Origin: a virus
DNA: 48,356 bases
Direction: 5' to 3' (one strand)
IMG/VR virus record: IMGVR_UViG_3300035691_000009
Coordinates: 1-48,356 of that record
The stretch's first letter is position 1. Each line of letters opens with the position of its first letter. Of this stretch, positions 18,587 to 34,986 are shown in pieces. The position numbers and the translations under genes were made by a program. The notes under the pieces were generated by a model. That model did not search any database. It saw only the letters and a list, made by a program, of their open reading frames with translations, and had not been told where the DNA came from.

Positions 18587-19093
18587 TTATGGGTTAATTA
18601 CGTTTGGATTTAAGGTAATCACAGCTAAACCAGCAGCGGTCACTGTGAAGTAATCTACGTAAGCATTAGCAGAAGCGGTTCCAGGAGGCAATGGGGTTCC
18701 AGGAGGAACTGTACTCAACGCACCTGTAGTCGTATCGTAAAGTACTACGTCTCCGATTGCTGCAGGAGCAGGCAAAGTGACGACTATTGTACCCATTGAT
18801 AAGATGTCCGCTTGTACTTCGTTCGCTAAGGTCATTGTGGGTGCTAAAGCAGTACCTAATGTACCGTAGAGAGCGTAATCTTTTGGCATTACTAAAATAC
18901 CTGCATAAGCGCCTGTACCACCAGCACGAGCAATACCTTCGGAAACGATAGTATAAGCTGTAGCACCGATAATATTTTGGCTAGCTAAGACAGATTGTAG
19001 AATATAAGACTGGGAGCGAATTGGTGTATTTGACCAAATTTCGCCTGGAACGCTTAGACCAGTTTGTCTAAAGACAGTTGATTGAAAAGGCAT
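18587..19093 (-). CDS. Capsid decoration/cement protein
   Basis: This 168-aa beta-rich protein is encoded between protease/scaffold and capsid genes behind a strong AAGGAGG. It contains repeated small residues and a segment LVMPKDYALYGTLG followed by GDVVLYDTTTGALST, as in structural cement proteins. It probably stabilises the mature head. Confidence 0.7.
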   Translation of the reverse strand: MPFQSTVFRQTGLSVPGEIWSNTPIRSQSYILQSVLASQNIIGATAYTIVSEGIARAGGTGAYAGILVMPKDYALYGTLGTALAPTMTLANEVQADILSMGTIVVTLPAPAAIGDVVLYDTTTGALSTVPPGTPLPPGTASANAYVDYFTVTAAGLAVITLNPNVINP

Positions 19094-19095
19094 GA

Positions 19096-20484
19096 TTAAA
19101 TCCCTCCTTGGGCTTCTTTAAGAAACTTATCTATGCTGCTTGATTCAACTTTTGCGTCCATAGCTTGAACTGATGCGCTCGTTGCTTTTGCGGCGGATAG
19201 ATATCCCTGTAACATTGAAATCTCATGGCCCTCTGGACAATGCAATTTCAAATTCTTGATGCCGTACTCGGCCACTTCTTGCAGAGTTTTTTCTGCGTGG
19301 TCAAAAGTACCTACGTGGAATGATAGTTTTTTAGCTAAATCATCACGTTCGGATATTTCTTTGAGAAATTCTTTCTTAAGTTTAGCGTCCATGCCGTAGT
19401 AATCCTTTTTGTCTTTTGGCTTTTTAGCTTCGCCCTTGGGTTCTTCCATTTCGCCATCTTTGACTTTTTTGTCATCCTTGGCCTTCTTGTCATCCTTGGA
19501 TTTTTTATCATCCTTTTCTTTCTTGTCGTCATCGTCTTTGATTTCGACAGTTTCTTCATCGTCATCATCGTCCATGTCATCATCGTCATCTGTAACATGA
19601 GCTTTTTTAACGAAGTCATCTGGCTCAACATCGTGAACCGGAGCGCCACCGGAAAGCTTGGCGACTTCAGCCTTTAGCTCCATAATCATCTTATGGCAAG
19701 CTTCAAGACTCATTTCTTCCTTGTCCATTTCCTTCATTTCTTCCTTTTCCATTTTATGAAACTCCTTTGCATCAAACGCGATTTTAAAATGATCTAAGAC
19801 GGCAACGTCTGGCCCTGCTCTTCCTTGTTCAACGAGGGCGAGATGATTTCCGCGTATCTTGCGCTGAATGGCATCATATCTCTCACCATTGTACACCCCC
19901 GCTGTCATTTCGTACAAGCACCTATACCCAATACTTAACTCTTTTTTACCATTTTCGATTAACTTAGCTAATTTATCCGAAAATACTTTTATATTGGCTT
20001 TCAGATACTCGCCATCAAAGAAAATTTCTTCTCCGATAACGCCTTGCACACCTTTTTGTTCTGCAGGGGTTAATCCTTCAGCGGATGACCCAAGCATAAC
20101 GTGTTCATCGACCCACGGTACGAGCTTAAAGGAAGCAATAGTATCAGGGTCTTGTAATTCTTCAGCAGGACGGTAAACCTGATAAATCTTATCGGGTTCT
20201 AACGATGAATCGATTTGACGACCGGGATAAGGGAAAACCCCAACTTTAGTAAGGGGATTTCCTTTCACTTCATACCATCCATTGAAATCTGTAACACGAT
20301 TCGATTCGCTATGAGTCGGCAATGTGGTATCTAAATCAGGAACGGGAACCCCAAAACCGGAATCCTTTTCGCGTTGTTTAGAGTAAGCAATTGCCACCGC
20401 TTGTTTTTGCGGGTATCCAGAATGCACTAGCTCAGAAATATTCTGAGATAGTACTTTTTTACTATGACCTTTTAATAGCGGCAT
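19096..20484 (-). CDS. Prohead protease (DUF2213) with scaffold-like C-terminus
   Basis: This is a 462-aa protein. Residues 1-40 form a basic helix-rich leader ([19 protein letters not shown]). Residues about 60-235 are a DUF2213 protease-like domain. The candidate catalytic His is in [10 protein letters not shown] and Ser in [21 protein letters not shown] closes the domain. The C-terminal 200 residues are highly charged, with Asp runs and DDKK repeats, then a helical end, as in scaffolds. It acts in prohead assembly and is presumably self-cleaving. Confidence 0.85.
19409..19600 (-). repeat. Low-complexity Asp/Lys-coding stretch in protease-scaffold gene
   Basis: Here GAT/GAC and AAG codons repeat as DDD runs followed by several units of the form KxKDDKK. 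The DNA is a strongly biased TCATC/CTT-type repeat on the plus strand. Such tracts expand and contract easily. Confidence 0.8.
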
Positions 20485-25058: not shown

Positions 25059-27281
25059 TTATACAATAGTAAAGGTACCTGCTGAGGCTTGGACTTCCCA
25101 AACATCTGGGGCTGTTATACAAACTAAAGATATGCTTGCAAATTGAGTCGCAGAAGCTAAAGAACCTCCTGGGCCAACGGTTGTTGAAAGTGCTCCATAG
25201 TGTATTACATGGCCTGCGTTTTGTTGGTCGATTCTCCATCCACCCGCACCCTTTCCATTAACTTTAACTTTGTCACCATCTGAGGCGCTTGTTGGTAAAG
25301 TTAAAGATACAACGGCGGCGTTATTTGCCGTGTACTCTGTGTTGACTGCAATAATATTAGTAAGATTAGTTGCTTCAACATAAGGAACAACAGGCGCTTT
25401 TCCGGCTAAGGCATTATCGATTCCTTGCATGTAACCTGTTAGCGCATTAGTAACGTAGCTACCTGGAACAAAGCTATATTGAGTAGGCGTGAAAGTATTC
25501 ATTAACAAGCCGTCAGTAATCCCGTACACCGTGACATCTATATATGAATTTAAACCGCCGATAATGGGTGCTTTGTTATATGAGTTTACGTCAATAGTAA
25601 AACTACAGAATTGTCCATCAAGATTTATAGGATTATCTAATTGGCAATTTCTAATGTGTACTGCTTGTTGCGCATTACCATTAGGCCGTGTGATATTTAC
25701 GGTTCCAGGCACGTGACAATTACGTAAATAATGGTTAAGGGCATAGTCATCATCAAGTAAGGTATAATTTAAATCGCTCCCAAAATTAACACTCTGTATT
25801 GTGGATTTAATATCACTTACAGTTAAACCACCACTAAAGCTGCTTGGAACAGGATTTAAATCGTTAATAATACATACGGTATTATCATTAAGATTTGAGT
25901 AACTGCTCGAAAATAAAAAACCTGCGGAGCATTGAGCCCAATTACAATTTAAGAATGTAACGACATTACCTAAATATGTATTTGATGCCCAATTGATATT
26001 TAAACCTGGAGAAGTTATTGGTTTAAATCCGGTTATGAGGACTTTCTCATTGCTTACCGTCCAAGATGCATCGAGTACTATTCCAGATAAACCATTAATG
26101 GTTACTGTGGAATCCACAAAATTAAGATCAATATAAGGATTGATATTAAAGTCACCTGCCAAGGTCATGTCACCAATAACATTCATTAAGAATCTGTTAG
26201 TAGGTGAAGCAACAGCGGCAGCAAATGCTCTTGCTGCGTCATACGTAGCAAAAGGTTGATTAATACCACCGTTGTTCAAGTCATTACCTACTGCAGAATT
26301 TACCCATATCTGCTGCCTGATACCATTTAAACCTTTAGTAATTATTTGAGATAAGTCACCAGCCAACAAAAGGGTAGGATCATTTAAGTAAGAAACTGTA
26401 TCAATTTCAACTGTGCTTAACGGGTCTTCAAGTACTGGAGAACCTGTGGGCATTGGGGTATTTCTAACATGTACGACTTGAGTTGAGGTATTAGGTATAG
26501 TCTTTTTGAGTATGATACCGAAAGGAATATTAGAATTTAATAAGTAGTGATTAACAGTCAGACCATCGCTCAATAAATCATATCGTATTTCGCCGCTTAC
26601 GGTAGCATTGAAAAGAACAGAGGGGCTATTGCTTAAAAACAAATTACTTGAGTAACTTGTGGTTACTAATGAAGTATCATTGATAATTTGTAATGCATTT
26701 AATGACCCAGGATTAGATAAAAAATTTCCGCCTGTTGTTAAACCGTGGTCGCAATTTAAGAATCTTATGATATTACCGTTATTTCCTATCCAACTGAAAA
26801 CCCAGAAGCCTATTAACTTCATGCCCGTAATAGTCACAAGTTCATTGTTAACTACAGTGTCCCAAGAATTAGCAAGTCCAAGGCCGCCAGTAACGGTAAA
26901 TGACCCTGCGCTAAATGCTAAGTCTACATATGGGTATAAAACAGGGGAATTTTCAGTAAAATTACCGATTAGGTTTATTAAAAACCTATTAGTGGGAGAA
27001 GCGGTAAGCGCCGCGTGCGCTGCAGCGGCTGCGTATGTTTGAAACGGGGTATATAAGCCACCGTCATTAGTGTCTAGGCCATCGGTTGCATTAACCCATA
27101 GCTGTTGATGAATAACGTTAGCGACCACACCGCCAGGAGTTAATTGAACAAAGTTACCTGCTAAATTGACGTATTCTGGCACGTCTGTATCATCATTAAA
27201 TACTAGCGTACCTGGATTTAAGACAATACCTGGTTTGTCCGCATTGGTTATGCGTGGGGTTTTAAGTGTTGGTGCTACCAT
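25059..27281 (-). CDS. Tail fibre/spike with two beta-helix modules
   Basis: This 740-aa protein begins with a short strand-rich head-like domain (KPGIVLNPGTLVFNDD). Two related modules follow, opening QQLWVNATDGLDTNDGG and QQIWVNSAVGNDLNNGG, each with an Ala-rich helix and SPTNRFL(I/M)N. Beta-helix coils of short strands come after each opening, as in pectate-lyase-like adhesins. The end contains an intramolecular-trimer-like stretch GWRIDQQNAGHVIHYG. It probably binds or cuts a surface glycan. AAGGAG precedes the start. Confidence 0.8.
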   Translation of the reverse strand: MVAPTLKTPRITNADKPGIVLNPGTLVFNDDTDVPEYVNLAGNFVQLTPGGVVANVIHQQLWVNATDGLDTNDGGLYTPFQTYAAAAAHAALTASPTNRFLINLIGNFTENSPVLYPYVDLAFSAGSFTVTGGLGLANSWDTVVNNELVTITGMKLIGFWVFSWIGNNGNIIRFLNCDHGLTTGGNFLSNPGSLNALQIINDTSLVTTSYSSNLFLSNSPSVLFNATVSGEIRYDLLSDGLTVNHYLLNSNIPFGIILKKTIPNTSTQVVHVRNTPMPTGSPVLEDPLSTVEIDTVSYLNDPTLLLAGDLSQIITKGLNGIRQQIWVNSAVGNDLNNGGINQPFATYDAARAFAAAVASPTNRFLMNVIGDMTLAGDFNINPYIDLNFVDSTVTINGLSGIVLDASWTVSNEKVLITGFKPITSPGLNINWASNTYLGNVVTFLNCNWAQCSAGFLFSSSYSNLNDNTVCIINDLNPVPSSFSGGLTVSDIKSTIQSVNFGSDLNYTLLDDDYALNHYLRNCHVPGTVNITRPNGNAQQAVHIRNCQLDNPINLDGQFCSFTIDVNSYNKAPIIGGLNSYIDVTVYGITDGLLMNTFTPTQYSFVPGSYVTNALTGYMQGIDNALAGKAPVVPYVEATNLTNIIAVNTEYTANNAAVVSLTLPTSASDGDKVKVNGKGAGGWRIDQQNAGHVIHYGALSTTVGPGGSLASATQFASISLVCITAPDVWEVQASAGTFTIV

Positions 27282-27295
27282 GTTCTAAACTCCTT

Positions 27296-30200
27296 TTAGA
27301 TTACTTCATATGTAAAGTTAATTTCAGCTCTGTAGTCGTCAGCTCCATTGACGTCCATAACCAGCTCCAACTCCGAGGCAAATAAAACCGCTTGGACTAT
27401 TTGCACACTGCCATCACCTAGCGCAGTAAATGGCGCTTTAGCGCATATCCCAGAACCTATTGCTTGTTCAAGTTGTAAAAAGCCACTTCCGAAAGATTTC
27501 CCAGCGTGAATATTTACGACAGAACCCGTAGAGGTAAATTGTAATTTAATTGACCCTACTACTATATTTCCGACTTTTACTTCGTGAGATCCCAGTACAG
27601 TAACTGCACTAACACCAGCAAAACCAGAAGCGGTCATTCCATTTATGACGGTCTGAGGAAGCGCTTCGTCTATACCCTTCAAATTCCCAGTCAGCGTGTT
27701 TGCTTCAAATGCAGTATCGCCACTAGGCACATAATTAGACGGGCTGTAGCTACTATTGGTCATACCATCGGTTTTCGTTGGCAATACCAAATTTGCTAAG
27801 GTCGCACCACCATTTAATGCCAATGTGAACATATAGGACGTAGAATCCACATTAACTGTGTTATTTACGCCGTCTATGTTCAAGGTTCTGCCCATAGTAT
27901 TACAAGCAGTAATAAACGTTGTTAAGGTGCTGGCATTATTGGTTTTTACATGAATATCATTTGTATAGAACCTAGCGTTATTTGCTACAAACTGGTAGTT
28001 AACTGAATCCGCGCTAGAAGCTGTTACTGTTACAGAGCCCGCGCTTATGTCCGTATTTATGAGGAATAAATTAACGTTTTCAACTAGGAATCCGTCTGCA
28101 TAGCCTGGGATATCATTTGTGCAATTCTCAAACACTATGGTTTCTGTACCTGCAGCAGTTCCGCTACCTGTAGCAGTTATAAAACCGCCGGTATTCATGG
28201 CAACATTTACGAACTTCAAGAAACTAAATACCGCAGGATTTAGGAATGTGAAAAGGTAATCCGTTCCATTTAGGTACATATACATATTTCTTACTTGTGT
28301 ATATGCTAAATCTCCAAGACCCCAATTTGGGTCAATAACTACATTTCCATTTACGATAAATCCAGAAGTATATGGATTCTGACCTTCAATACAGACGTTA
28401 GGACTAAGAGTCATATCGCCTGCAATATTATGGGCGCCGACCACTATAATATCCCAAGGCTGGCTACTGTTCGCCCCACGCGCTAGCGCTTCAAGTCTAG
28501 CCGCATCATAATTTTGCATTGGGTAATTAATAGTACCGCTATTGTTATCATCGCCATTAAGTTGATCGATATAAATTAGGAAAGAAATACTTCCTTTAAT
28601 ATTCGCAAAACTAGCCCCACTGCCGAATGCAAAAGTCTTAAATTTATAAGAGTCTGCATCAATAGTTACGGTATTAGATGTACCATCAATTGTTAAAGTA
28701 CGTCCCCCCGTATCACATCCAGATATATAAGTTGCTAGAGTTCCAGTGGAAGTTGCATTAATCGTCATATTTCCAGTTGGGCCTTGGAGATTTTGGATGA
28801 TGCAATTTGCATTAGTAACAGCGGAAGTTACTGCAACATCAATAACTCCAGAAGTAGCGCTATTAAGTAAAGAGAAATTCACGTTATCGGTAGTAAAATT
28901 GGGGCCATTTCCAAAAATATCGGTAGTACAATTATCAAATATTACCCTTTCCGCACTTGCATTTGTTCCTGCACCGGCAATGTTCACGTTTGGTAATTGC
29001 AATGACGAATTTTGGAATCGTAAGAACGAACCTGCTTGGAACGCTGGATAAACCAAACTAATTCCTGCAGCTACTAAATCAATATCGGTAAATACCGTAA
29101 ATGGCGTGGTCGTTGTACCCCAAGCAGCGTCAAGTACTACATTTCCACTTACAATTACAATAGTGCTATAGCTCGTATCGCCCACGACATTAACAAATGG
29201 GCTTATTGTCATATTGCCCGTGATGTTGAATTTACCTATCAAAATAATACTAAATGGTAAATTAACGCTAGGATTCCTAGATACCGCAAGCAATCGTGCG
29301 GCTTCATAAGTTTTTAATGGGCTATCGATAGTACCTTGGTTTAAATCGCTACCATCAAGATTATTAACCCATATTAATTGCGTTAGGTTAGAAATGTTTG
29401 GCGAGGTACCAATAGCGTCCATTGCTTCTGCAATAAAATTGAAGTCAGATACAATCGGGTCGTTACTATTATCATTATTTTCAACCCAAACCTCTACGGT
29501 GTTTCCAAGGTTTAAAGGTATTAAAGCCTGACAAATTGCAGGTTTATCTGCAGGAGTTGTTGGGCCAATATATTCTTTTTGTTTAGATCGAGCAACCACA
29601 CTGCCACTTACCGCAATATAAAAACTTGTGTTTTGAGCAGTGCCATTATAAGTCGCACTCATTACAGCACGTAAATCAAAGACTTTTGATACAGGCGATT
29701 GATACGTTAGCGTACCGTTTAAATGTGTGAAGTCTTTTAATTCACCTGCATTGTAAGTTGCTACAATTTTAACCGGAGTATTTGGGGCGCTAATGGGTGT
29801 TGGTGTAACATTGTCCTGAAAATCCATTCCTGCGTAAGATGGCAACAATCCAATATTAGCCACTGATAAGTCAAGACTTTCGATACCAAAATTCACATCT
29901 CTAACAACGATAGAATTTGTATTGTCGTTGTTTTCTACCCATAACTCGAAGGTATTGCCAGTGACTGCAGGTGTTTTAACTTGTACAGGCAATGGCTGAT
30001 TTCCTGGCGTAATAGGGCCAATAAATGCCGTTTGTTTAGATTTAGCAATTGGCGTGCCATTTTTAGTTATGTAGAAACTTGTATTTTGCGCAGTTCCTTC
30101 ATAAGTTGCCGTAATCATGGCCGTCAAATTCAATTCACGATTAGGCAAGCCCGTATATGTGAACGTACCTCCAACTTGCGTAAATTGCTGTAAATCGCCG

Positions 30201-31786
30201 CTGTTATATGTCGCTATGACCTTCGTGGGCGTGTTTGGGGCGCCAAAAGGCGTTGGCGTTACATTGTCTTGAAAATAGGTTTCTGCGTAAGCTGTGGGAA
30301 TCCCAACACCGCCGCCAGAGAGGGCTTCATCAATACCTTTCAAGTTACCGACCACACTGTCTGCTTTCCATTCACCAAGAGGGCCGTCTTGGGGCGTATA
30401 ATTGGAGGGCGTGAAGTACTTATTAGCTAGCATGGCGTCTGCAATAGATGTGGCATCATAAGTTGCGCCATTTACTAATGCAGGCAGTTCGTTTAGGAAA
30501 TCTGCAGTAAATATTACGCGTCCCCCACCAGCGCCGTTATCTAATGTTGGCGTATTGAAATAACTCATGGTCTTCGCGCCAACAAATAAATCACCAGAAT
30601 CGGTAACTTGATATGTAGTCGTTCCGATAACTTTGGAGTTCTCATGAAAGAAAGTGAAATCAGTATTTGTATTATTAACATAACCAAAGTTGCCAATAGT
30701 TGTCATGTCAATAACGCTAAAATTAGGACAATCTGTAACTGTTATATCACCTGATGCACCACTAGCCAATGCGCCATAGCATCGCACCACGTTATAAGAT
30801 AGCTGACTAGAAAATCCAAAGTTATTGCTTATGTTAACGATAGCTCCATTCGTGTAACCAATAACATTCATTAAAGTAGCGGAGGTTATGATGTTATTTG
30901 AGAAATTCAATAATGCGAATGGTGCTTCCATTAAATTAAAATCAAAATCAACAGTAGCAGGCAAATTCAAGCTAGTGAAGTTTTGGAAGAATAAAAAGCC
31001 ACCATTAACCCACGAAGGGTCTAATGATAACGAGCCAGTAATAGTTAATTGGCTTTCGCTACCATAAATAAATACGTTTTGTTTAATAGCTAGGTTTGTC
31101 TCAGTATAACTACCGTTTTGAACGATAATCATGTACGGGCCATCAACTGTTGGATTGATTTGAGACATTGCGTAACTTAATGATGCATAGGGAAACAATA
31201 TGCTCCCATCATTCTCCGCAGGTACATCGCTCCCACTTGGCGCGACATATCTGGTATTAGGATCTGAAGCTAATTCAACATCGCCGGTCTTATTACCATT
31301 GATAGTTTGCACAACGCCTAAAAACTCCCATGCGCCCGCGACACTTGTGCGGTCATTAGGAATTGCGTTATAGCAGGCATGTGGCCCAACTTGAAATATA
31401 AGTGTGTCAGCCCCATTGTGGATATTAATAGGGTCTGACGTATTCCCTGTGATTAATTGAATCGTTTGAGAACCCTGTAAAGATGTAGGCTGATTCTGAG
31501 GCGGAAGCTTCAAGACACGGCCAGGACTTGTCGCGTTCATAACGACAAATATCGGGGGTGGATTAGTAAGCGTATATGTGCCACCCCCTGCTGCAAAGTC
31601 TGAATCATTAACTATCTGAATTCCTGGACGACCTAAACCTAAATTTTCAATAGAGGTTGTATCATCCAAGACGTCAGATAAGTTATTAACCGCAAGCAAA
31701 GCACCTGATGGTGGCGGGCCGCCGCCAGTAGGAACTTGGAATATCTTAAGCCATTTGTAAAAATCCGATCCGATAATATAGCTCAT
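27296..31786 (-). CDS. Giant modular tail fibre / receptor-binding protein
   Basis: This is a 1496-aa protein, starting at ATG 31786 which overlaps the preceding stop (ATGA). Three beta-helix modules open with TRYVAPSGSDVPAEND, IWVNNLDGSDLNQGT and IYIDQLNGDDNNSGT. Between the first two lie two tandem, about 144-residue beta-sandwich copies that begin with FQDNVTPTP. Linkers such as GNLKGIDEAL recur. It is by far the largest gene, and its modules match those of the next gene. It is most likely a long trimeric fibre that binds the host surface. Confidence 0.82.
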   Translation of the reverse strand: MSYIIGSDFYKWLKIFQVPTGGGPPPSGALLAVNNLSDVLDDTTSIENLGLGRPGIQIVNDSDFAAGGGTYTLTNPPPIFVVMNATSPGRVLKLPPQNQPTSLQGSQTIQLITGNTSDPINIHNGADTLIFQVGPHACYNAIPNDRTSVAGAWEFLGVVQTINGNKTGDVELASDPNTRYVAPSGSDVPAENDGSILFPYASLSYAMSQINPTVDGPYMIIVQNGSYTETNLAIKQNVFIYGSESQLTITGSLSLDPSWVNGGFLFFQNFTSLNLPATVDFDFNLMEAPFALLNFSNNIITSATLMNVIGYTNGAIVNISNNFGFSSQLSYNVVRCYGALASGASGDITVTDCPNFSVIDMTTIGNFGYVNNTNTDFTFFHENSKVIGTTTYQVTDSGDLFVGAKTMSYFNTPTLDNGAGGGRVIFTADFLNELPALVNGATYDATSIADAMLANKYFTPSNYTPQDGPLGEWKADSVVGNLKGIDEALSGGGVGIPTAYAETYFQDNVTPTPFGAPNTPTKVIATYNSGDLQQFTQVGGTFTYTGLPNRELNLTAMITATYEGTAQNTSFYITKNGTPIAKSKQTAFIGPITPGNQPLPVQVKTPAVTGNTFELWVENNDNTNSIVVRDVNFGIESLDLSVANIGLLPSYAGMDFQDNVTPTPISAPNTPVKIVATYNAGELKDFTHLNGTLTYQSPVSKVFDLRAVMSATYNGTAQNTSFYIAVSGSVVARSKQKEYIGPTTPADKPAICQALIPLNLGNTVEVWVENNDNSNDPIVSDFNFIAEAMDAIGTSPNISNLTQLIWVNNLDGSDLNQGTIDSPLKTYEAARLLAVSRNPSVNLPFSIILIGKFNITGNMTISPFVNVVGDTSYSTIVIVSGNVVLDAAWGTTTTPFTVFTDIDLVAAGISLVYPAFQAGSFLRFQNSSLQLPNVNIAGAGTNASAERVIFDNCTTDIFGNGPNFTTDNVNFSLLNSATSGVIDVAVTSAVTNANCIIQNLQGPTGNMTINATSTGTLATYISGCDTGGRTLTIDGTSNTVTIDADSYKFKTFAFGSGASFANIKGSISFLIYIDQLNGDDNNSGTINYPMQNYDAARLEALARGANSSQPWDIIVVGAHNIAGDMTLSPNVCIEGQNPYTSGFIVNGNVVIDPNWGLGDLAYTQVRNMYMYLNGTDYLFTFLNPAVFSFLKFVNVAMNTGGFITATGSGTAAGTETIVFENCTNDIPGYADGFLVENVNLFLINTDISAGSVTVTASSADSVNYQFVANNARFYTNDIHVKTNNASTLTTFITACNTMGRTLNIDGVNNTVNVDSTSYMFTLALNGGATLANLVLPTKTDGMTNSSYSPSNYVPSGDTAFEANTLTGNLKGIDEALPQTVINGMTASGFAGVSAVTVLGSHEVKVGNIVVGSIKLQFTSTGSVVNIHAGKSFGSGFLQLEQAIGSGICAKAPFTALGDGSVQIVQAVLFASELELVMDVNGADDYRAEINFTYEVI
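29415..30285 (-). repeat. Tandem duplication of a beta-sandwich domain in the giant fibre
   Basis: The approximate copies are 29846-30285 and 29415-29845. Each starts FQDNVTPTP, continues with an NTP-KV/I-ATYN motif, contains GTAQNTSFYI and ends near WVENNDN. The two proteins differ at many positions, so the duplication is not recent. Confidence 0.8.
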
Positions 31787-31977
31787 TGTAAAATCCACCC
31801 TGAAATGTCGGTTAAGTTAACACCCGTGTAAGTAAAAGTTTGTTTATAAAACTTCAAACTCCCTGGGGGATAATTTACAGTGATAGAAATTACTTGAGTT
31901 CCGGCATACGCAATTTCCTGTTCGAGTGAATCGAGAGGAAGCATAGCACCATCGCTTGCTTGTACGGTTGATGACAT
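31783..31977 (-). CDS. Small hypothetical protein between TerS and fibre
   Basis: This 64-aa acidic protein reads as one small beta-rich domain (VISITVNYPPGSLKFYKQTF). GGGAG is 8 bases upstream. It is coupled to the giant fibre by ATGA. It could be a fibre-associated or head-tail protein, but no family is recognised. Confidence 0.65.
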   Translation of the reverse strand: MSSTVQASDGAMLPLDSLEQEIAYAGTQVISITVNYPPGSLKFYKQTFTYTGVNLTDISGWILQ

Positions 31978-31978
31978 A

Positions 31979-32407
31979 TCAGTGACTCCCTGTCATGATT
32001 TTCTGATAAATTTTAGCAGCTTCAACGGGATCTTTAGTATTGAGAACAAGCTCAACCTTTTCGGGCGGTTTGTCTTCCTTGATTTCCAGATGACTCTTCT
32101 TAACCCAATTCCCGCCGCCTTGTTTTTCCAGATAGAACATTATAGCCTTTAAATTACCTTTTTTCACCAGTTCCATTAGCTTACTTGAAACAAAGGCAAC
32201 TGTTTTGGCTCTACCGCGCTTAATAGTCTCTGCAATTTCTGGATATCTTGCTAGTGTAGCATACCAACCAGATTTTTTAAGACCGAAAAAATTAGCTATT
32301 TGCAAAGGCTTCATTTGACCTGCAAGACCTTCAATTGTCTTTAGGTTTTCTGGAGTTGGCTCAAGGCGTAACTTTGGGCCGACTTTAGCCTTCTTTTTCG
32401 CTGTCAT
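31979..32407 (-). CDS. terS: Terminase small subunit-like protein
   Basis: This 142-aa basic protein has an HTH-like N-terminal part (MKPLQIANFFGLKKSGWYAT) and the segment MFYLEKQGGGNWVKKSHLEI seen in small terminases. It recognises phage DNA for packaging. It is separated from terL by the fibre genes, an unusual order. It overlaps the ParB-like gene by 23 bases. Confidence 0.75.
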   Translation of the reverse strand: MTAKKKAKVGPKLRLEPTPENLKTIEGLAGQMKPLQIANFFGLKKSGWYATLARYPEIAETIKRGRAKTVAFVSSKLMELVKKGNLKAIMFYLEKQGGGNWVKKSHLEIKEDKPPEKVELVLNTKDPVEAAKIYQKIMTGSH

Positions 32408-33002
32408 CGAAAATCTCTCCTGTTGATTCTAAGATGGCCTTTTGTGATGTAAGTCCTTGCCAATGCCGTATTAAATCATCACATATCTTAGGATTCTCCC
32501 CACATTCTAGCTTATGGTTACCTAATAGCCAAATGTCTCCGAACTTACATATTGATTCTTTCGGGTCACTGTCAGAATCTGTCTGCGGCTGGTAATCAAC
32601 GATTTCAGGATTTAAAATGGCGTCTATTTCATCTTGGTCAAAGCCCGTAAGTGTTGGGTCAAAGTCATCGCTAATGATGTCCTCAAACTCATGCTTCAGT
32701 AGCTCGTAATCCCATCCAGCTTTAAGCGCCAATTTGTTCGCAGCCAAAATATAAGCCTTTTGGGCCGCTTTAGTTAGATGACTATGGGTAATAGTAGGCA
32801 CCTCAAGAAATCCTAGCCTTCGGGCTGCTTCAAGGCGGGCGTGGCCTGAAATGACCACATTGGCAGCATCTACCTCAATCGGGTCTAGAAAACCGTAAGT
32901 CGTAATACTATCCATTATCTCCTTAATTTGTTCATCACTATGCGTCCGAGCGTTATGTTCGTACCCTGTCAAAATATCCAATGATTTCTTGATAATTTCC
33001 AT
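32385..33002 (-). CDS. ParB-like protein with deleted methyltransferase core
   Basis: This is a 205-aa protein. The N-terminal ParB/sulfiredoxin-type domain shows HNARTHSDEQI (residues 16-26) and VISGHARLEAARRLG (50-64). After residue 150 comes GDIWLLGNHKLECGE (155-169), which normally introduces the DNA methylase part of ParB-methylases. It is followed at once by DDLIRHWQGLTSQKAIL (175-191), which normally ends it. The SAM- and DPPY-bearing core is absent. Upstream AAAGGGAT supports the start. It may regulate or nick DNA at the late promoter region, but activity is unknown. Confidence 0.82.
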   Translation of the reverse strand: MEIIKKSLDILTGYEHNARTHSDEQIKEIMDSITTYGFLDPIEVDAANVVISGHARLEAARRLGFLEVPTITHSHLTKAAQKAYILAANKLALKAGWDYELLKHEFEDIISDDFDPTLTGFDQDEIDAILNPEIVDYQPQTDSDSDPKESICKFGDIWLLGNHKLECGENPKICDDLIRHWQGLTSQKAILESTGEIFDDSEKEG

Positions 33003-33419: not shown

Positions 33420-33447
33420 CAATTTGTAGTTATTGGAGATTTACGAT

Positions 33448-33723
33448 ATGCAAGCACGATTAGACGCGATATCAAAGAACCAAAAAACATATATAGCAGA
33501 ACACCCTTGCATGCGTGGCCACGAGCCAATACGCTACGCAAGTACTGGTATATGTGTATTTTGTAATAGGCAAAGAGCTATTGATGCCAGGGCAAAAATT
33601 ATTAATAAAGCATGGGGGTTTAAAGAACGAACAGTTATGGTTCATGACGCAGATTGGGAATATGTTCAAAGAATAGTTAAACAGACCGAAATGGCTAGAA
33701 AATTACAGGAAGGAAAGATATGA
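33448..33723 (+). CDS. Small zinc-finger protein
   Basis: This 91-aa protein has the metal-binding pattern CMRGHEPIRYASTGICVFC at residues 21-39, followed by RQRAIDARAK. This C-GH-RY-C-C arrangement recurs in small phage proteins of unknown role. GGAG precedes the ATG by 9 bases. It leads the rightward accessory block and is coupled to the next gene by ATGA. Confidence 0.75.
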   Translation: MQARLDAISKNQKTYIAEHPCMRGHEPIRYASTGICVFCNRQRAIDARAKIINKAWGFKERTVMVHDADWEYVQRIVKQTEMARKLQEGKI

Positions 33724-34217
33724 AATTTGATGGTATTAAAAGAGGAATAGAGATTTTTTCAGACGCTTGCCAAACTACCGATACCATGAAAATAGCTATG
33801 GTTTTATCAATTATTAGGGATTTAATATGCGTTATCGAAAATGAACCTGCTAAAAGCGATGAAAAAGCTATGGGACAACATTTAGACGATATTTATACAA
33901 GACTTGAGAATATTGAAGGCTATTTATTTAACCCATTTAAACAATCAGGACTTACAAAGCATTTAGAGCGCTTAGAGCAACGCTTGCCCCCGCTATATAC
34001 GCCTATTGATGATTCTAAACAAGATAAAGGAACTACTGTTTATTACCCCGTGTATTTTGATGTGGCTTTAGTTGCATTTAGACAAGGTAAAACTATCAAG
34101 CATAGGTCTTGGGATAAAGGTATTAATTTAAGTAATTTTGAGGATGAATCAAGAGGAGGTAATTTAGCTATTCGAGTAAAAGATATGGTGTATGAAAGTT
34201 GGATAATATTAGACTAA
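33720..34217 (+). CDS. Protein with Tad2/DUF2829-like C-terminal domain (first copy)
   Basis: This is a 165-aa protein. The N-terminal 100 residues are helical with a coiled-coil-like part (DIYTRLENIEGYL). The C-terminal about 55 residues read VYFDVALVAFRQGKTIKHRS with a following W-D-K-G, then a strand block, and end KDMVYESWIILD. This corresponds to the DUF2829 pattern F..AL.A...GK.v.r..W..g ... w.i, the family of the anti-Thoeris protein Tad2. The domain is shorter than typical Tad2 and lacks the usual PWIAM segment. It may bind a small signalling molecule. Similarity is read by eye. Confidence 0.65.
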   Translation: MKFDGIKRGIEIFSDACQTTDTMKIAMVLSIIRDLICVIENEPAKSDEKAMGQHLDDIYTRLENIEGYLFNPFKQSGLTKHLERLEQRLPPLYTPIDDSKQDKGTTVYYPVYFDVALVAFRQGKTIKHRSWDKGINLSNFEDESRGGNLAIRVKDMVYESWIILD

Positions 34218-34231
34218 TTTAAGGAAAACTT

Positions 34232-34621
34232 ATGAGTATTGAAGATGAATTAACTGCTATTAAATCAATAATTAAATCGGGTAGTAAAGTACCAGATGAA
34301 AGGTTTCATGATGTCCTAGAAAGACTTTATTTATTTTCTGTTCAAATAAATGGTCGGATAGCTGATTTAGAAGATAAACGTGCAGAAATTGTTAAATATG
34401 CGAATGATTTAAATGACCGTCTTTCGTTTGTTGAAGAAACTCTTGATATTGACGTTCCTTATCCTAAAGTCTCTTTTGAAGTAGCTTTTGCGGCTATGAA
34501 ACAAGGTAAAACCATTAAGCATGCCAATTGGGATCCCCAAGTAAATCTTAAAAACCTTAACTACAATGCCTCATGGCTTCTTCATGACATGATGTCGGAT
34601 GAATGGATAATACTTGACTAA
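34232..34621 (+). CDS. Protein with Tad2/DUF2829-like C-terminal domain (second copy)
   Basis: This 129-aa paralogue of the upstream gene has a different helical N-terminus (DELTAIKSIIKSGSK) but a matching C-terminus: SFEVAFAAMKQGKTIKHANW then D-P-Q and MSDEWIILD. AAGGA precedes the start. Paired copies sharing only the last domain suggest that this domain is the working part and the N-terminus determines assembly or partner. Confidence 0.65.
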   Translation: MSIEDELTAIKSIIKSGSKVPDERFHDVLERLYLFSVQINGRIADLEDKRAEIVKYANDLNDRLSFVEETLDIDVPYPKVSFEVAFAAMKQGKTIKHANWDPQVNLKNLNYNASWLLHDMMSDEWIILD

Positions 34622-34918: not shown

Positions 34919-34986
34919 ATAGAGATAACTCAATCGGTAGAGTGCCGGTACGCCGGAAGTTGATGGTTCAAATCCTTCTCTCTATA
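34919..34986 (+). ncRNA. tRNA-like RNA lacking an anticodon loop
   Basis: All tRNA parts but one are present. The acceptor ATAGAGA/TCTCTAT (34919-34925, 34979-34985) has 7 perfect pairs. U8-A9 follow, and the D arm is ACTC/GAGT with the loop AATCGGTA (conserved GG). The T arm is GATGG/CCTTC with the canonical TTCAAAT loop and one mismatch. The discriminator is A. In place of a 17-base anticodon arm there are 12 bases: CCGG-TACG-CCGG, a 4-bp stem with a tetraloop. There is no anticodon and no encoded CCA. The acceptor helix extends four more pairs (GCTT/AAGC). It cannot decode a codon. Confidence 0.65.

Follow-up and report, generated by a model that had tools for sequence, protein, structure and literature searches.

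The gene pair and its surroundings

The DNA analysed here (the window) comprises an entire IMG/VR virus record, 48356 bases long. Hafnia phage yong1, Salmonella phage SEN34 and Burkholderia phage Magia have similar structural genes, with a large terminase about 60% identical to that of the window. Among its genes for replication are those for a primase, a helicase and a fragment of a DNA polymerase. No host was found when genome contigs were scanned with the ParB-like neighbour of the gene pair. The head maturation protease recurs at 100% identity in a second IMG/VR record (L055, 6748 bases, positions 321–1703), and the phage or a near twin has thus been sampled twice. Two large proteins of the structural region have no PHROGs or Pfam match (Table 1).

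The two proteins of interest, P0001 and P0002, are encoded in tandem and both start with ATG. In the sequence ATGA, the start codon of P0001 shares bases with the stop codon of a small ORF upstream, and P0002 follows after a gap of 14 bases; this spacing makes it likely that all three form one operon. The upstream ORF carries a CxxGH...CxxC motif, which we read from the sequence as possibly zinc-ribbon-like, and it matches phrog_23777 (E 2e-7) and phrog_1081 (E 1e-6), both of unknown function. It is 46% identical to an equally placed gene of a related phage, L064. There the counterpart is followed, again by an ATGA overlap, by a different gene of 72 aa, which has the appearance of a coiled coil and lacks the C-terminal Tad2-like domain. 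The slot downstream of this small gene therefore seems to vary between relatives.

Two other features lie close to the pair. The relatives L064, L065 and L066 have a ParB-plus-DNA-methyltransferase protein of about 410 aa; the ParB-like protein of the window retains its two ends and lacks the methyltransferase middle. On the other side lies a tRNA-like element in which ARAGORN finds no tRNA. Its acceptor, D and T arms look intact, and the anticodon arm consists of a 4-bp CCGG/CCGG stem closed by a UACG tetraloop, making it a tRNA-like element without an anticodon. Phage tRNA genes match it only weakly and over short lengths, and it was not found in a search of 12 related loci, few of them extending this far. 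It could be a remnant or act as a tRNA-like decoy.

Table 1. Positions of the gene pair, its domains and neighbouring features in the window.
Feature	Positions	Strand	Description or basis
Structural-region protein	25059–27281	−	740 aa
Structural-region protein	27296–31798	−	1500 aa
ParB-like protein	32385–33002	−	205 aa
Small upstream ORF	33433–33723	+	96 aa from TTG, or 91 aa from ATG at 33448
P0001	33720–34217	+	165 aa
P0001 N-terminal part, residues 1–105	33720–34034	+	No Pfam match, no relative found
P0001 C-terminal mini Tad2-like domain, residues 106–165	34035–34214	+	BLASTP, profile and model evidence
P0002	34232–34621	+	129 aa
P0002 N-terminal long helix, probable coiled coil, residues 1–74	34232–34453	+	AF2 model
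P0002 C-terminal mini Tad2-like domain, residues 75–129	34454–34618	+	PF11195, phrog_3474, phrog_1048, models
tRNA-like element	34919–34986	+	Rfam tRNA match, 53.6 bits (gathering 29)

The shared domain and its relationship to the Tad2-like family

P0001 and P0002 share a C-terminal domain of 55–60 residues, as the original prediction had proposed for these tandem ORFs. BLASTP aligns the two proteins with 53.9 bits (E 8e-15, 37% identity over 93 columns); the trimmed domains are 52% identical, and their score was reached by none of 1000 shuffles. The motif quoted in that prediction is present, but with two rather than three residues between A and Q; corrected, it reads F-x-V-A-x-x-A-x-x-Q-G-K-T-I-K-H-x-x-W-D, and the domain ends in (S/E)-W-I-I-L-D. 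The N-termini had been described as unrelated and helical. The first part stands, since 123 of 1000 shuffles scored as well as the real pair and no kinship between them is detectable in sequence. The second is supported for P0002, the protein whose N-terminus was modelled. The AF2 model of P0002, built from an alignment of only P0001 and P0002 (mean pLDDT 64), places helices at residues 3–15 and 22–70, with block pLDDT values of 54–75. An XseB-like match to the P0002 helix (Z 5.1) reflects merely a coiled coil. The P0002 N-terminus was also compared with the 72-aa protein of L064: only four of 1000 shuffles did as well, but BLASTP aligned just nine residues (E 0.048), and because coiled coils match by composition this resemblance is too weak to be claimed as kinship.

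No close relative of either protein was found in viral or genome contigs. Plasmids gave no match to P0001 and four chance-level matches to P0002 (E 4–6), while phages gave one chance-level match to P0001 (E 0.5) and no close relative of P0002. A DNA pattern for G-K-T-I-K-H-x-x-W occurs in 19 viral stretches, and in none of their reading frames was the rest of the domain seen by eye. NCBIfam and PADLOC yielded nothing useful, and a phmmer search of PDB with the single P0002 sequence returned no Tad2 and nothing relevant. A two-row profile of the window domains did retrieve PDB entries, all but one of them WD40-type repeat proteins with designs ranked first (E 3e-11); each repeat contributes only 4–5 bits, with stretch E-values above 200, and we regard these matches as an artefact.

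P0002 matches the Pfam Tad2-like family PF11195 (DUF2829) with 13.6 bits (E 0.1) over residues 81–101, or 21 of 73 positions, and P0001 has no Pfam match at all; neither protein reaches the curated cut-off of 25 bits. The statement that the pair matches the DUF2829 family was consequently too strong, although a resemblance at the level of the fold is probable. Over the same residues P0002 also weakly matches phrog_3474 (E 0.065; no match for P0001) and phrog_1048 (E 0.11). Both are Tad2-like: phrog_1048 matches SPO1 Tad2 (E 1e-28) and phrog_3474 the short T4-like proteins described below (E 8e-28).

As no close relatives were found in the collections searched, two composed queries were used to gather real phage Tad2-like proteins, of which 16 full-length and 11 short domains were used. 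With hhalign the two window domains align end to end with the short set (probability 91.5, 50 columns) and over 21 columns with the full-length set (probability 71.4). Members of both sets had been selected by the family motif and trimmed manually; the short set is mixed and includes two phrog_3474 members. The observed score was reached by none of 200 column shuffles for the short set, the full-length set or both together. In pairwise tests at the same level (0/200, uncorrected for multiple testing), P0002 scored with 11 of the 27 domains and P0001 with four. In an HMM search of 5682 reading frames, P0002 is found with E 0.007 by the short profile and 0.73 by the full-length one, and P0001 with E 2.7 and 3.9, within noise.

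Among the closest known comparisons is SPO1 Tad2 (gp34.65; PDB 8sme, 8smf, 8smg, 8wje) with PF11195. The sequence motifs of the family are present in the window domains in both alignments and shuffles: an α1–β1 motif, F-x-x-A-x6-G-x-x-[IV]-x-[HR]-x-x-W, and an α3–β5 end, D-[ML]-x-x-x-W-x-[IV]. The window domains differ in their length (55–60 rather than about 85 aa), their sub-cut-off scores, the absence of β2–β4 and α2, the N-terminal part ahead of them and their occurrence in two copies.

Predicted structures are compatible with this relationship. A model of the P0001 domain has a mean pLDDT of 72, its five-row alignment including one full-length Tad2-like row (from L065) that may pull the fold towards Tad2. 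All ten among the matches listed for it are of the Tad2 family (Z 4.4–5.2, r.m.s.d. 2.2–3.9 Å), with SPO1 Tad2 aligned over 49 residues at Z 5.2, and in a Foldseek search of PDB this family takes the first 21 of 32 places (best E 0.33). For the P0002 model four SPO1 Tad2 entries are among the best 25 Foldseek chains (Z 3.6–4.0, 47–51 residues), ranking below several coiled-coil matches to the N-terminus. Z values of 3.6–5.2 lie in the range that the tool calls common, the Foldseek E-values are weak, and both models are of modest confidence. Of 98 BFVD matches to the P0001 domain model, the top two are uncharacterised proteins of uncultured Caudovirales phages, A0A6J5RVU0 (122 aa) and A0A6J5RPL0 (274 aa); compared by model alone, they give query TM-scores of 0.61–0.62 without long insertions. 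Several of the matches that follow are labelled Thoeris anti-defense 2-like. Judged by sequence comparison and modelling together, the window domain is probably a strongly shortened version of the Tad2-like fold, with which the models suggest it has the α1–β1 and α3–β5 units in common.

Short forms of the domain are not confined to the window. A composed short query found 175 places in 138 records, a list that also includes full-length forms, and many of the phage proteins with short domains are annotated simply as hypothetical. The T4-like short proteins (phrog_3474, 64 aa; Proteus SJ_PmiM and Morganella MP1) have the same length and both ends of the window domains. In the alignment A, G, I, H, D-M and W-x-I are kept, with I-x-H and D-M...W-x-I common to the two groups; however, they are single stand-alone domains and have FS or FT in place of the β1 W. 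Lactobacillus phages (phrog_6670; Iacchus, Bromius, P1 and Lpa804) resemble the window in having several copies per phage of a short domain linked to another part, but there the domain is mostly N-terminal with the extra part C-terminal. Short domains are joined to other parts in Bacteroides phages as well, and Klebsiella phage P184 (3266–4654) has four adjacent frames, annotated as hypothetical proteins, each with a short Tad2-like domain. The related phage L065 encodes a full-length Tad2-like protein of 88 aa (18835–19101) within its structural module, between genes that we read as portal-like and head-like from their likeness to window genes. Among the titles and abstract openings listed for Tad2, Thoeris and DUF2829, no miniature or tandem pair of Tad2-like proteins is described.

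The missing middle and the ligand pocket

The reduction of the domain is concentrated in its middle. From the β1 W to the last W there are 24 and 29 residues in the two window domains, 31–38 in those short relatives with a W at β1 (7 of 11), and about 46–71 in full-length Tad2-like domains, a range that leaves out three of 17 rows in which the first W lies upstream of β1 (L031, L034 and L041). The domains are thus shorter than standard Tad2, as originally noted together with the suggestion that they may bind another ligand. In Tad2 the stretch between the α1–β1 and α3–β5 units carries β2–β4 and α2; no strands are predicted for this region in either window model.

A review describes the gcADPR pocket as formed by the loops β1–β2 and β3–β4, strand β4, the loop β4–α3 and helix α3, the dimers as meeting at α2 and β2, and cyclic dinucleotides as bound via an insertion between β2 and β5 (PMC12043709). 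Set against that description, the β1–β2 and β3–β4 loops, β4 and the β2–β5 insertion are largely absent from the window domains, leaving most pocket elements without a counterpart. The sponge mechanism known from Tad2 is therefore not directly transferable, and the proposed sequestration of a cyclic ADP-ribose-type signal finds no support in the pocket elements so described. AcrIIA7/HgmTad2 (PDB 8kbi–8kbm, 9kzr) has the Tad2-like fold, as the window domains are predicted to have, but is longer (104–158 aa) and, by entry titles, was solved bound to cADPR or a cyclic dinucleotide. The anti-Thoeris reading is a lead about the fold only: such activity is possible, but the anatomy gives no indication of it.

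Possible roles of the pair

We give about an even chance to the proposal that P0001 and P0002 are phage accessory proteins from one operon, carrying a mini Tad2-like binding module that is not a standard gcADPR sponge. The two would be expressed together from the small operon, each with the miniature domain at its C-terminus and a different N-terminal part ahead of it, helical in P0002. Most likely, each would combine a compact binding module with a helical N-terminus that oligomerises. The N-termini would drive oligomerisation, replacing the α2 and β2 interfaces lost from Tad2, and the module would bind either a ligand or a protein of the host while the phage takes over the cell or counters its defences; the operon would be accessory in kind, possibly counter-defence. 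Two diverged copies could allow one phage to cover two targets, or a hetero-oligomer to form. Bolder, and in our view unlikely, is the idea that the Tad2 fold has been cut to a 55-residue cassette, swapped among N-termini and kept in tandem, so as to form hetero-oligomers that bind a defence signal or protein not bound by full-size Tad2.

Alternatively, though we think it somewhat improbable, the proteins may be adaptors or regulators in which the mini domain docks on a putative host or phage protein, the N-termini set the partner and no nucleotide signal takes part. The loss of the pocket region, the differing N-termini, the short domains that Lactobacillus and Bacteroides phages combine with other parts and the CxxC-bearing small gene in the operon are all consistent with such a role. 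The full-length protein of L065 is also weakly akin to phrog_643, labelled transcription regulator (E 1e-4), but this label is an annotation and P0001 and P0002 themselves have no phrog_643 match.

That the pair are anti-Thoeris or anti-CBASS sponges, whose mini domains still oligomerise and, through a rebuilt pocket, bind gcADPR, His-ADPR or a cyclic dinucleotide, appears distinctly unlikely. The modelled fold core is that of SPO1 Tad2, ModTad2, SptTad2 and HgmTad2/AcrIIA7, α3, itself a pocket element, is retained, and the related phage L065 carries a full-length Tad2-like gene. Against this, the middle strands and loops, with most of the pocket parts described, are gone, and the gene of L065 sits elsewhere, among its portal and head genes. 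Least probable is that the two are paralogues peculiar to this phage, resembling Tad2 through the chance likeness of a short helix–strand motif: the lack of close relatives in any collection searched and the partial Pfam match would fit it, but the hhalign shuffles, the whole-domain alignment with short relatives and the structure searches that retrieve the Tad2 family argue against it.

The preferred reading of a reduced binding module bears on how such proteins are named. Tad2-like proteins receive anti-defence annotations by name transfer; a rhizobiophage Tad2-like domain, for example, was reported as a predicted Thoeris blocker with its role still to be determined (PMC13299392), illustrating how anti-Thoeris names spread. 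A short, doubled form that lacks the described pocket and follows different N-termini warns against such transfer. The mini domains are also compact enough to help test where in the Tad2 fold the activity lies: should a signal be their ligand, they would count as very small sponges, and if it is not, the Tad2 fold would have another job in phages.
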